Source: Bacteriovoracaceae bacterium (GTDB lineage: Bacteria; Bdellovibrionota; Bacteriovoracia; Bacteriovoracales; Bacteriovoracaceae). From it: a stretch of 33,363 bases of DNA. Position 1 is the stretch's first letter. Every line of letters starts with the position of its first letter. The position numbers and the translations under genes were made by a program. Where the stretch lies: NCBI GenBank assembly GCA_021732585.1, contig JAKFUR010000160.1, positions 1-33,363 on the forward strand, written 5' to 3'. Shown in pieces: positions 1-31,374 of this stretch. The notes under the pieces were generated by a model. That model made no database searches. It saw only the letters and a program-made list of their open reading frames with translations, and was not told the DNA's origin.

Positions 1-602
1 GCGGACGCCTTAGCATCTTTGGTTTGATTTCCATCAAAGGAAATGCCCACTACGACGTGGCCAAGATCATCAACACGAATCCCAAAGAAGTGGCGCGCTT
101 TAGCCAGATTCAAGAGCGTGACTTCCTAAAGCTGCAAAAGAAAATCAAAAAGCTCACTCTGAAGCACGAAGACGATCTCATTTTCGTTAAAATGATGAGC
201 GCAAAGTCCCTTGAACTGGCCGCTTTAGCGCCAGCAGAAGACATGGTCGACATCTACCCCAAGATCGCTCGTGTTGCCCAGAAGGTGACACAAGTGAGCT
301 TCATTGGAATTCAGAACGTTCTCTCTTGCACGACGACGGACTACGCCGATCGTTCTCGTGGAGCTGGTCTCAAGGTACGTGTGCTTTTTATCAGCCTTAA
401 ACTGTCAGCGAGCCAGCGCCAACTCGCCCACACGGCACGCGTTTGTTCGAGCCAAGAAGTCAGTATCACTCGCGATGCATTCACCGCGACGTCGAGCGCG
501 CTTCAAAGTGCTGACGAAGCCCTCGAGTACCATGGAAAAATTCTTTCTTTGAAAATGTTCACGGATGTAGAGGCCGAGTACTACCCCACTTGGAATCTCT
601 AG
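1..602 (+). CDS. Hypothetical protein, 5' end cut by window edge
   Basis: The reading frame is open from base 3 to the TAG at 600-602, and the first usable start (TTG at 24) lies inside it, so the gene most likely begins upstream of the window. About 200 residues are visible. The middle has a Lys-rich amphipathic stretch (QKKIKKLTLKHEDD) followed by alternating hydrophobic and polar residues. I see no signal peptide, membrane helix, catalytic motif or family I recognise. A strong hairpin directly after the stop suggests the transcript ends here. It could be a regulatory or structural cytoplasmic protein, but no function can be given. Confidence 0.6.
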   Translation, partial: GRLSIFGLISIKGNAHYDVAKIINTNPKEVARFSQIQERDFLKLQKKIKKLTLKHEDDLIFVKMMSAKSLELAALAPAEDMVDIYPKIARVAQKVTQVSFIGIQNVLSCTTTDYADRSRGAGLKVRVLFISLKLSASQRQLAHTARVCSSQEVSITRDAFTATSSALQSADEALEYHGKILSLKMFTDVEAEYYPTWNL

Positions 603-27112: not shown

Positions 27113-27910
27113 TTAGAAATTTCGCGCATCATTCAAGCAATTCTGGTCGAACATCACCACGTTGCCTGTTTGATTCATTCGAATCGCGAATTGAATGAGA
27201 TCCGAGCGACCTTCATTGAGCCAATACATTACGCACTTATCGTTGTTGCAATGGGCCCCATGCCCCTCGGTATCTTTGTGGGCTTCGTTCATCGGCAATC
27301 CGTTGTCCACAAGCCCTAATGCGTGCCCGATTTCGTGGACGAGCGTCGCCTGCTCAACAAAGAGAGGAACAAAACCCGCAGCAGACATGCCGGACTGTCG
27401 CACCACTTCTTTAAAAATCGCCACCACTGTCGTCCCACCTAGCGAAACCCCAACAGTTGAAGGTTGATCCTTCTTGCCATCATTGAAAACACCGTCAAGG
27501 AATACGACCCAGAAGTAAGTTTCAGTCGCTGAAGATCGGCCCGTGCGATATTTCTCGGAGAGCTTCAGGATATCTTCGGGCGTCCAGCTGGTCTTACCTT
27601 GGACCGGCAATTCCTTCATCTCGGCGTGCGTTTTTGGCACCACGATCACGGGCAGCTGCGCACGCCCTTGATAGAGCGCATTCAAGTTTTCATCCAAGAT
27701 CTGCCAGATGGGAATACCTGCTCCAATGGTACTTCCATCGGCGTAGGGCCTTTGCCCCGACTCATAGGCCACCTCAACCGTGAGTTTGGTTGAAACCGTG
27801 AAGTAGTTCTTGGTGGTTTCGTACTTGTTGAGTGAGCGCGAACTGCGCACGTCCTCATCTTTACCGCAGCCAAAGAAAGCCAAACACGTAATTAATAGGA
27901 AAAGACGCAT
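27113..27910 (-). CDS. Metzincin-type metalloprotease lipoprotein
   Basis: The product is 265 residues. N-terminus MRLFLLITCLAFFGC ends in a lipobox (AFFGC) with Cys15 lipidated. The metal motif HEIGHALGLVD (192-202) is HExxHxxGxxD, with Asp as third ligand, as in snapalysin (M7), and the Met-turn is probably M228 in CVMYW; CNNDKC lies just before. It is thus likely a zinc endopeptidase at the cell surface or periplasmic face. A CCGATAA box six bases before the ATG looks like a FliA -10. Its substrate could be prey or envelope proteins, which is inference. Confidence 0.75.
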   Translation of the reverse strand: MRLFLLITCLAFFGCGKDEDVRSSRSLNKYETTKNYFTVSTKLTVEVAYESGQRPYADGSTIGAGIPIWQILDENLNALYQGRAQLPVIVVPKTHAEMKELPVQGKTSWTPEDILKLSEKYRTGRSSATETYFWVVFLDGVFNDGKKDQPSTVGVSLGGTTVVAIFKEVVRQSGMSAAGFVPLFVEQATLVHEIGHALGLVDNGLPMNEAHKDTEGHGAHCNNDKCVMYWLNEGRSDLIQFAIRMNQTGNVVMFDQNCLNDARNF

Positions 27911-27916
27911 GGAATC

Positions 27917-27943
27917 TTATCGGTAAGCGGGTTAGCATATTGA
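27917..27943 (-). promoter_or_regulatory. Sigma 28-like promoter of the metzincin gene
   Basis: ACCGATAA (27924-27917 on the minus strand) matches the FliA -10 GCCGATAA at 7 of 8 and ends six bases before the ATG. The -35 at the right distance (TCAATATG) matches TAAAGTTT at only 4 of 8. No ribosome site lies in the gap. Confidence 0.4.
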
Positions 27944-27962
27944 TATACACGGAGGACATCTC

Positions 27963-29222
27963 ATGAAAAATCACTGGAAATTACTTCTAGGGCTCGGACT
28001 TGGTATTGTGGCCGGCACCTTCGCCCACAGCTATCAGGATATCGGCTGGCTACAGACCATGAACCAGAACCTGATCTTTCCCGTCGGGCAAGTCTTTCTC
28101 CGCCTCCTCTTCATGATCGTAGTCCCGATGGTCTTCTCGGCGTTGGTTTTGGGTGTCTATGACCTCGCCAGCAATCAGGGCGTCGGCAAAGTCGCCGGCA
28201 TGACTTTGTTCTACACCATCATTGCTTCAACTGCTTCTGTGATCATCGGCATCGGTTTAGTAAACAGTGTGCGCCCCGGTGACGGCTTCAACGTCGACCG
28301 CTCGGTGTTCGAAACCGCCAAGGCCAACGTCGATACCATCAGCGCCAACGCCGGCAACGCCAAGAGCTTTGCGCAAGCGATGGTAGAAGTGATTCCAAAA
28401 AATCCTCTCGACGCTGCTGTTCGCGCGCTCGACGGCGAAATGCTTGCTCTCATGTTCTGTGCCCTGTTCTTCGGTTTTGCCTTTCACCTGTACCGCAAGG
28501 GCCGCGAAGGTGATCATCCCCTGTTGATCATGGGAATCTTTGATGAGATTTTCCAGGCGTCCCTCAAGATCGTTGAAGTTGCCATGAAGCTCGCGCCCTA
28601 CGCCGTCTTCGCGATCGTTTTCCAGACCGCTTTCAAGTTCGGGCTCTCGATCTTTGAATCCCTCATCTACTTCGCCGCCACAGTCGTGGTCGGTCTCTTG
28701 ATTCAGCAATTCGTGGTCTACTCGATCCTCTTGAAAGTCTTCGCGAAACGTAATCCGTGGGACTTCTTCCGTAAGTGCCAAGACGTTTACCTCTACGCGT
28801 TCTCAACCAGTTCATCGAACGCCACTCTTCCGAAGTCCATCGAAGTGGCCGAAACCAAACTGGGTCTCACGCCCTCGATCTCACGCTTCGTACTCACTGT
28901 GGGTGCCACCGCTAACCAAAACGGGACCGCGCTCTTTGAAGGTGTCACCGTGTTGTTCTTGGCGCAAGTGTTTCAGGTCGATCTCTCTATGGGCCAGCAG
29001 TTGCAAGTCGTCTTGATGTGTATCATCGCCGGTATCGGTACCGCGGGTGTTCCGGGCGGCTCATTGCCCCTCATCATGATCATCATGAACTCGGTGGGTA
29101 TTCCCGCTGAAGGGATTGCGCTGATTCTTGGCGTGGATCGTTTCTTGGATATGTGCCGCACGACTTTGAATGTCAGCGGTGACTTGGTGATTGCGGCCCT
29201 TGTTGATAAAAAACCTAGTTAG
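27963..29222 (+). CDS. Dicarboxylate/acidic amino acid:cation symporter (SDF family)
   Basis: The product is 419 residues with about eight membrane segments and the two re-entrant hairpins. Motifs: STSSSNATLP (HP1), GATANQNGTALFEG (usually NMDGT), GTAGVPGGS (HP2) and DMCRTTLNVSGD (396-407). R399 corresponds to the Arg that binds the acidic side chain in GltPh, so the substrate is probably glutamate, aspartate or a C4 dicarboxylate. N320 replaces the Asp of NMDGT that helps bind sodium, so the coupling ion may differ. GGAGGA precedes the ATG. Likely function is uptake of amino acids during growth. Confidence 0.85.
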   Translation: MKNHWKLLLGLGLGIVAGTFAHSYQDIGWLQTMNQNLIFPVGQVFLRLLFMIVVPMVFSALVLGVYDLASNQGVGKVAGMTLFYTIIASTASVIIGIGLVNSVRPGDGFNVDRSVFETAKANVDTISANAGNAKSFAQAMVEVIPKNPLDAAVRALDGEMLALMFCALFFGFAFHLYRKGREGDHPLLIMGIFDEIFQASLKIVEVAMKLAPYAVFAIVFQTAFKFGLSIFESLIYFAATVVVGLLIQQFVVYSILLKVFAKRNPWDFFRKCQDVYLYAFSTSSSNATLPKSIEVAETKLGLTPSISRFVLTVGATANQNGTALFEGVTVLFLAQVFQVDLSMGQQLQVVLMCIIAGIGTAGVPGGSLPLIMIIMNSVGIPAEGIALILGVDRFLDMCRTTLNVSGDLVIAALVDKKPS

Positions 29223-31341
29223 GATCTACTTCTAAGCAGGCGCCGAAAAAACCGGCGCCTGTATCTACTCTTCCTTCAGATCGCAACGGAACAGAACCAA
29301 GCACTCCCGTCGCCGAAGCCAGTGGTAAGCGCACCGTTGAGCCTAGGGTACCTGAGATTCCGTCGTTGAGCGCATTCATGACAGTTTGATTAAAGGCGGC
29401 GCCGTTTTGAAGCGCAAAGCGCGCTGTACCTGGCACTACGGACCAATTCACATTCGGACTTTCCGCGCAGAAATCGCCATTGTTGCAGGCCTTCGCTCGG
29501 AAGTTGTAATTGATATTCAAATCGCCTCCGAACTTCCCAATCCCAAGAAACCCATAGTGGAAACATTTCTCCATCTGCACAGAGGTCGCGTAACGGCGAG
29601 ACGAAGCAATGTAGCGCAGCTGTGGAGGTGACTTCAGGTAGCAGGTCATTCCGCTCATCTCGAGTTTGCATCCAGAGCCACGAGGCATGCCACTCGGATA
29701 AAACTGCGGCTGTCCTGCGCTGTCACGTTCAGGAACGAAAGCACCACGTCCCTCCGCACACATTTGCCCGTTTTCCCACATCCGGCCGAGAAGCGCATTC
29801 ATGTCCTTGAGATCCGAATAGACTTGAATCGGACAGTTTGGAATCGAGCGACCTTCGTGAGCAGAGGGCGTATTGGCATCACAAATATCAGGCAACGAAA
29901 GTCCCACACCTGTCATGCTCGTGCCAAGCTGTGCCTGCAACTCCATGAAGCGAGGGAGATTTGCGTTTGTCTGTGCGACTACAATCCCATCAATCATTTT
30001 ATCGAGATCTTCAATGTCGGTGCTAACCCAAAACGGATCTAGCTTCTGCAACTGCTCTTTGACACGTAAGAGTCTTTGGCGAATATTTTCAGATGTTATA
30101 TTGGTGGACCCATCCCGCCTCGCGAAGAGATCTCTCAACCGATTGACCGCAAAGAAATACTGAACAGGAGTTTGTTGGGTGATTGCGCCTGAAGAGGTTC
30201 CTACGTTAGGTAAGCCAAGACAGCTGTGGCCCGCCGGAATCTGCCCTCCTGCACGCTGGATCGTGGCACACTCGAGGACCGCAAGCGAATCTTGGGCACT
30301 CATGTTGGCCACACCCAACTCTGTCATGAGCGCTCCGGCATCGACGCGCATGACCCGTCCCTGGTCAAACTGTTGCCTTAGTTCAGCAACACTCTCTCTC
30401 ACATTTGTCCTCAGCACTTCGCTGAGACTTCTCTTGATCCCTTCTTCAATCGAGCTCCGCACGGGCTGGAACAGCACAGGGACAACTTCGTTTTGAATCG
30501 CCTGGATGTCGGTGGCCGAATAGCCGCTCAATCCTTCAATGCTCAAGCGTGGCGCGGCTTCTCTAAGGATAGAGTCAGAAATAAAAGGCCCTCCAGGCAC
30601 TTCAAGTCTGACGTCCTCCAGCGGTTCCGAACCATTGAAGTTCACTCGTGCACTGATACAAACTTCACGAGGCGCATCGAGACGAGGATTAATATTTCTG
30701 ATGGTGAGAGAGTCGTCAGCAAGCTGCGTGCCTTGGGTATTTAAGGCAAAAGCCGCGGACATGTTCAGCTCAAGCTCGGTGAGCTGCACACACATTTTCA
30801 CCCGACCGTTTTCGATTTTGACCTCTTTGGGTGTCGCAGATAATTTTTCAATTCGTAGAGGCTCAGGAAAAGAAATTTGCCCCGGGTAGATCATCTCCAC
30901 ACTTTGGCAGGCCCCTACTTGCAAGCTTCCTTCAAGCACTGGACATGGGAGCCTAAAACATATCTGCTCTCGGACCGTACTATTCAATGTGGGTAGCGCA
31001 CAAAGGCTCGGAGAATCACAATCGAGTTGAGCGTAGAGCGGATCTCCTTCACGCTTTTCTTGCAAGCAACGTTCTTTAGAATGCGGCATCCCCATAGGCT
31101 GCAGTTGCACCGGTGTTTGCGTTAACTGATTGAAGGCCGCGGAATCTGCGCCAGCTTCGAGAAGAGGTAACAAGAAGGACAAATTGCTTTCGTCACTTCT
31201 AGAAGACGCGAGGGCATTTCCTGCTACCGCCACACGTACCAGCTGGGAAGCACACTCGGCTTCCCCAAAACACGGCTGAGTGTGAGCCTCTTGGGTCATA
31301 AGAATGAGAGCAATCGCAATGACTGATTTTAAAGAAGCCAT
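29215..31341 (-). CDS. Large Cys-rich exported protein of unknown function
   Basis: The product is 708 residues. Signal peptide MASLKSVIAIALILMTQEAHT is followed by more than a dozen Cys spread in clusters (CFGEAEC, CDSPSLC, CFRLPCP, CLEVDPN at the end), pointing to disulphides in the periplasm or outside. A central region (SSIEEGIKRSLSEVL) is helical and amphipathic, and surrounding segments look like beta strands; a lipid-binding fold of the BPI/SMP type is one weak possibility. I recognise no family. A perfect FliA -10 lies six bases before the ATG. It overlaps the convergent symporter gene by eight bases. Confidence 0.65.
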   Translation of the reverse strand: MASLKSVIAIALILMTQEAHTQPCFGEAECASQLVRVAVAGNALASSRSDESNLSFLLPLLEAGADSAAFNQLTQTPVQLQPMGMPHSKERCLQEKREGDPLYAQLDCDSPSLCALPTLNSTVREQICFRLPCPVLEGSLQVGACQSVEMIYPGQISFPEPLRIEKLSATPKEVKIENGRVKMCVQLTELELNMSAAFALNTQGTQLADDSLTIRNINPRLDAPREVCISARVNFNGSEPLEDVRLEVPGGPFISDSILREAAPRLSIEGLSGYSATDIQAIQNEVVPVLFQPVRSSIEEGIKRSLSEVLRTNVRESVAELRQQFDQGRVMRVDAGALMTELGVANMSAQDSLAVLECATIQRAGGQIPAGHSCLGLPNVGTSSGAITQQTPVQYFFAVNRLRDLFARRDGSTNITSENIRQRLLRVKEQLQKLDPFWVSTDIEDLDKMIDGIVVAQTNANLPRFMELQAQLGTSMTGVGLSLPDICDANTPSAHEGRSIPNCPIQVYSDLKDMNALLGRMWENGQMCAEGRGAFVPERDSAGQPQFYPSGMPRGSGCKLEMSGMTCYLKSPPQLRYIASSRRYATSVQMEKCFHYGFLGIGKFGGDLNINYNFRAKACNNGDFCAESPNVNWSVVPGTARFALQNGAAFNQTVMNALNDGISGTLGSTVRLPLASATGVLGSVPLRSEGRVDTGAGFFGACLEVDPN
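29237..29261 (+). terminator. Hairpin after the symporter, inside the convergent gene
   Basis: CAGGCGCCG (29237-29245) and CGGCGCCTG (29253-29261) form a nine-pair stem with an AAAAAAC loop, 15 bases after the symporter stop. No T run follows on the plus strand. The same bases encode the last residues of the minus-strand gene (TGAGFFGAC), so the stem has to serve both. Confidence 0.45.
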
Positions 31342-31347
31342 GGTGTT

Positions 31348-31374
31348 TTATCGGCATAATCCATCAAAGATTCA
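31348..31374 (-). promoter_or_regulatory. Sigma 28-like promoter of the Cys-rich exported protein
   Basis: GCCGATAA (31355-31348 on the minus strand) is a perfect match to the FliA -10. Eleven bases upstream TGAATCTT (31374-31367) matches TAAAGTTT at 5 of 8. Six bases separate it from the ATG at 31341, with no ribosome site. Confidence 0.5.

Follow-up and report, generated by a model that had tools for sequence, protein, structure and literature searches.

Of 140 attack-phase promoters in Bdellovibrio bacteriovorus, 92 contain the sequence TTAAG-N16-CCGATA (PMC3627812). The Bdellovibrio attack phase has FliA as its master regulator, and FliA is essential in this genus (PMC5430801). Wide use of FliA-type promoters in the Bdellovibrio attack phase, invoked in the initial annotation of the DNA studied here, is correct for B. 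bacteriovorus (PMC3627812), and FliA promoters and their attack-phase role in Bdellovibrio are already known. The B. bacteriovorus FliA regulon includes non-flagellar surface proteins and proteases (PMC3627812, PMC5430801), a set akin to the one proposed below for a member of the Bacteriovoracaceae. The two organisms also resemble each other in their -35/-10 consensus and in having FliA and flagellins encoded in the genome, although the Bacteriovoracaceae are not Bdellovibrio and belong to another class of the phylum than B. bacteriovorus. MAT (mosaic adhesive trimer) proteins are displayed on the attack-phase cells of B. bacteriovorus (PMC10769870).

The flagellar class-3 promoters of E. coli, which depend on sigma-28, have the same TAAAGTTT-N11-GCCGATAA geometry as the promoters considered here. 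As far as is known, the class-3 mRNAs of E. coli have a leader with a Shine-Dalgarno sequence, and the boxes of the Bacteriovoracaceae genome, unlike E. coli class-3 genes and the flagellin genes of the same genome, leave no room for such a leader. In placing a -10 element 6 to 8 bases before the start codon and in lacking a Shine-Dalgarno sequence, the genes behind these boxes are like leaderless genes of other bacteria; what sets them apart is an apparent link with an alternative sigma factor and with exported products.

Placement of the boxes at the locus and in the genome

The window, by which we mean the entire 33,363-nucleotide stretch of DNA that was analysed, is contig 14 of a MAG of the Bacteriovoracaceae (assembly 2.58 Mb, 77% complete). 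It contains two genes, P0001 and P0002, that are preceded by CCGATAA boxes on the minus strand (Table 1). The earlier observation that a box ends six bases before each ATG proved exact at both, a distance suited to a +1 position on the start codon. Promoter 1 reads CTTA-CCGATAA-GATTCC-ATG and promoter 2 ATG-CCGATAA-AACACC-ATG, their -10 elements being ACCGATAA and a perfect GCCGATAA, respectively. The G directly after the CCGATAA of promoter 1 is likewise found in 13 of 16 other sites of the genome. Both start codons fit, because a signal peptide or lipobox begins immediately after each ATG. The divergent symporter gene carries an ordinary Shine-Dalgarno sequence, ACGGAGG.

Table 1. Coordinates of the genes and putative promoter elements at the locus
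Feature	Coordinates	Strand	Basis
P0001: lipoprotein (265 aa) carrying a zincin motif, HEIGH; first gene after promoter 1	27113..27910	-	ORF and translation
Putative -10 element of promoter 1, CCGATAA, 6 bases before the P0001 ATG	27917..27923	-	Motif search, PWM
Putative -35 element of promoter 1, ATCAATAT, 13 bases before CCGATAA	27937..27944	-	PWM match, 3.9 bits
Divergent sodium:dicarboxylate symporter gene, outside the FliA unit	27963..29222	+	PF00375, 4e-109
P0002: secreted protein (708 aa) rich in Cys; TULIP (BPI/CETP-like) fold predicted	29215..31341	-	ORF, model
Putative -10 element of promoter 2, GCCGATAA, 6 bases before the P0002 ATG	31348..31355	-	Motif search
Weak putative -35 element of promoter 2, TGAATCTT, 11 bases before GCCGATAA	31367..31374	-	5/8 match to TAAAGTTT

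CCGATAA itself is not rare in the window, where four copies occur and 2.3 are expected, so that its position is what counts. Within 801 kb sampled from the genome, CCGATAA has 86 copies, and 9 of these lie 6–8 bases before the ATG of an ORF of at least 75 aa, as compared with 1.0 expected (Poisson P ~1e-6), and the pattern CCGATAA-N4-9-ATG occurs 47 times in the whole genome, in which about 18 apparently leaderless genes with the exact CCGATAA were seen. The long ORFs that begin 6–8 bases behind the box mostly have a signal peptide, lipobox or membrane segment at the N-terminus. According to a simple rule, under which the 747 background genes were scored liberally, signal peptides are present in 14 of 19 CCGATAA genes and in 296 of the background genes (odds ratio 4.3, P 0.003); the 19 include a pair with the same upstream sequence at contig ends, possibly a single gene. 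At these ends (L071, the start of C8, and L132, the end of C149), the same box and gene start are followed by reading frames that soon diverge, and the two probably represent a single locus in which the assembly introduced a frameshift. Other genes of the class in this genome encode a protein with an amidase domain, as well as several products that match no known family. The product of another gene with this layout (L079, 1260-2231, minus strand) is secreted and matches the Pfam ATLF zincin domain family weakly, below cut-off.

In 129 genomes of the family, plain counting found CCGATAA 6–8 bases before ATG 4030 times and 20–22 bases before it 2788 times (an excess of only 1.45x), the former count exceeding the latter in 113 of the genomes. 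The other distance (20–22 bases), together with tests at ORF starts, served as the control. A reversed-pattern control was dropped as too lenient, since CCGATAA-N20-22-ATG beats its reversed control as well and the effect is thereby overstated.

Conservation in related genomes

When the 110 bases before each of 24 P0001 homologues were scored with the matrix, 19 had their best site at a distance of 6 or 7 bases from the start codon (null mean 1.6, maximum 6, in 300 rounds), and five had no matching site there. These sites stand before GTG as well as ATG starts and include the variants GTCGATAAG, CCGATTAG and CCGAAAAG. For P0002, whose family members were left out of matrix training, the best site lay 6–9 bases before the start in 11 of 13 genes that are single or head a tandem cluster (null mean 0.8, maximum 4), and none of six second genes of such clusters had such a site. 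The divergent symporter gene, considered as a cause of the conserved upstream region, was rejected: it adjoins only in same-genus loci and cannot explain conservation in other genera.

The positional peak of CCGATAA before starts appears in three genomes. In 400 kb from another genus of the family (G105), taken as stretches at even spacing except for one chosen to cover its P0001 homologue, long-ORF starts follow CCGATAA by 7 bases in seven cases and by 8 bases in four, 11 in all, where the background is 0.40 per distance (P ~1e-9). In a single-contig genome from another class of the phylum (G186), the distance from box to start is mostly 7; most stretches of this genome were picked around known matches, and the weight of this result rests on six unbiased stretches and a whole-genome pattern count. 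Because the preferred distance differs between the genome of the window (6–8) and G186 (7), a leader of one or two bases is possible.

Five full-length proteins behind putatively leaderless CCGATAA boxes in G186 carry an S74 domain. A PDB sequence search with the longer fibre proteins of this genome matched two of them to solved MAT structures, and the same kind of search gave no match for a 385-aa fibre protein. Several putatively leaderless CCGATAA genes of G186 encode S74-tailed fibre proteins, and the layout stands before homologues of the MAT fibres of B. bacteriovorus; P0001 and P0002 are not MAT proteins. That two classes of the phylum retain this layout suggests that they share a mechanism, not reported to date, for turning on surface proteins of the attack stage.

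Promoter class and competing explanations

Both boxes at the locus are very probably sigma-28 (FliA) -10 elements, with transcription predicted to start within a base or two of the start-codon A and to yield leaderless mRNAs as part of a FliA regulon rich in exported proteins. De novo EM on 16 other sites of the genome, from which both window sites were left out, recovered CTCAAGTT 13–14 bases before CCGATAAG with a score of 119.9, ten standard deviations above shuffles (mean 77.6, sd 4.0, maximum 86.8). This spacing equals that of sigma-28, TAAAGTTT-N11-GCCGATAA, and TTAAG-N16-CCGATA of B. bacteriovorus (PMC3627812) closely resembles the motif. The -35 element, (T)AAAG/TTAAG-like and 15–16 bases from CCGATA, is present for the class as a whole, moderate at P0001 (ATCAATAT) and weak at P0002. 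The latter promoter had been described as a perfect GCCGATAA with TGAATCTT as the -35 at 11 bases; its -10 is perfect and the spacing right, but the -35 matches only five of the eight positions of TAAAGTTT, and its best alignment to the PWM scores -1.1 bits. It is weak in the nearest orthologue too. A matrix trained without the two window sites ranked promoter 1 14th and promoter 2 164th of 113,278 scored positions.

The genome encodes FliA (C5:18982-19650; TIGR02479, 270 bits, over the curated cut-off) and six flagellins. The same promoter motif stands before two of the six flagellin genes, 24 and 71 bases ahead of the first ATG, and the gene with the motif at 71 bases has a Shine-Dalgarno sequence. 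The same promoter is therefore usable with a leader, and the flagellin genes constitute a positive control. Together, the positional statistics, the de novo -35 element, the flagellin controls and the footprinting across many genera strongly support, at the level of sequence, the FliA-type and putatively leaderless layout put forward in the initial annotation.

It is quite unlikely that these are instead leaderless promoters of the housekeeping sigma factor, in which GATAAG would be a sigma-70 -10 element and the CCG incidental. Leaderless initiation does seem to be general in the genome of the window, as TA(T/C/G)AAT before the ATG of long ORFs peaks at 6 bases in the sample examined (18 versus a background of 2.4; L047-L066 and L097-L116). 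In G186, where TATAAT-like boxes at the start number 3 versus 0.9 in biased stretches, leaderless initiation looks largely tied to the FliA class. Yet the CCGATAA class possesses its own -35, CTCAAGTT at 13–14 bases, the same motif precedes flagellin genes, and among the homologues the CGA varies less than the TAA end does, as in CCGAAAAG, CCGATTAG and GTCGATAAG, which suits sigma-28 and not TATAAT.

An ordinary FliA promoter with a short leader, from which transcription would start a few bases past the box and translation at a later in-frame start, is quite unlikely. Variation in the box-to-start distance, from 6 to 9 bases among genes and species, would agree with such an arrangement, but signal peptides and lipoboxes begin right at the ATGs, and the position of the box is kept even when the start codon is GTG. 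We consider it very unlikely that a second factor of the sigma-28 family, rather than FliA, reads these promoters. Such a protein is encoded in the genome (L015, C149:906-1517, 228 aa) and matches TIGR02479 nearly over its full length, at 154 bits and below the 189.6 cut-off, whereas the motif is identical to the one established for FliA in B. bacteriovorus and stands before the flagellin genes of this genome. Chance matches to a 7-base word, with which the copy number in the window is compatible, are a negligible explanation given position and -35 coupling, and are refuted in practice by the footprints.

Gene products and the proposed FliA regulon

Homologues of P0001, found in 26 genomes of the family, share an invariant lipobox C15 and invariant H192, E193, H196, G199 and M228. 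The HExxHxxGxxH/D region reads HEIGHALGLVD in P0001, with N at the last place in most homologues. The earlier description of this protein as a metzincin agrees with the HExxH motif, the conserved Gly and the invariant Met, but metzincin identity is unproven because the third metal ligand of this group is not conserved. Zincins in Pfam reached only E 0.06, below cut-off, and nothing significant was found for P0001 in Pfam or PDB sequence searches.

The P0002 family consists of secreted, Cys-rich proteins of ~700 aa, often in tandem, that occur in 7 of the 129 genomes of the family; its loci include P0002 itself, L025, L032 and L039. The named genomes with homologues are MAGs classified as Bacteriovoracaceae, Halobacteriovoraceae, Bdellovibrionales or Proteobacteria, and the organism of the window is on this basis Bacteriovorax-like rather than a Bdellovibrio. 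One paralogue, on C10 (L025, 1492-2739), has an in-frame TAA after 416 codons beyond which homology continues, and may be a pseudogene, a split gene or an assembly error. P0002 has no Pfam family, and Pfam and PDB sequence searches gave nothing significant. A model of moderate quality (pLDDT 72, pTM 0.48) has CETP (6e-9) and BPI (1e-8) as its best Foldseek matches, followed by many other TULIP proteins, but the global TM-score is only 0.25–0.35. P0002 may be like the TULIP superfamily (BPI, CETP, SPLUNC, Takeout) in its predicted fold; it differs from that superfamily in having no sequence similarity, in being bacterial and secreted, and in its tandem paralogues and ~20 Cys residues. A secreted lipid- or LPS-binding protein acting in predator-prey contact is a reasonable guess from this model, and no more.

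From the sequence of the P0001 and P0002 promoters we infer that FliA-holoenzyme would bind CTCAAG/CCGATAA, that transcription would begin 6–8 bases downstream of the box, on or beside the start codon, and that the resulting leaderless mRNA would be translated without a Shine-Dalgarno sequence. Both genes would then belong to a FliA regulon rich in exported, envelope and secreted proteins. By analogy with B. bacteriovorus, the products of this regulon would be synthesized by free-swimming attack-phase cells, with synthesis ceasing in the growth phase, and P0001 and P0002 may accordingly be attack-phase proteins involved in host interaction. A broader proposal, somewhat short of an even chance in our estimation, is that FliA in the Bdellovibrionota drives a large leaderless regulon of predation proteins, whether secreted or on the surface. 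Leaders and Shine-Dalgarno sequences would be retained by the flagellins, and the predator would thereby have a separate translational channel in its non-growing stage.

Start-codon-fused promoters are not described for the B. bacteriovorus FliA regulon in the accessible portions of PMC3627812 and PMC5430801, and a literature search, with many subscription papers and all supplements outside its scope, found, at the level of titles and abstracts, no report of leaderless FliA promoters in Bdellovibrio or the Bdellovibrionota. Within the same scope, no description was found of such promoters as a layout often used for exported proteins, as seen here in two classes. A native FliA promoter joined to an added ribosome-binding site would, as a warning, be one whose normal mode of use has been changed. 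If non-flagellar FliA targets are systematically leaderless, the regulon would be readable from any genome of the phylum, uncultured members included, by the pattern CTCAAG-N15/16-CCGATAA-N6-8-start, and many candidate prey-interaction proteins that match no known family, those of the BPI-like P0002 group among them, would become listable. If this is true, translation of the attack proteins in these predators would follow a route that needs no Shine-Dalgarno sequence.
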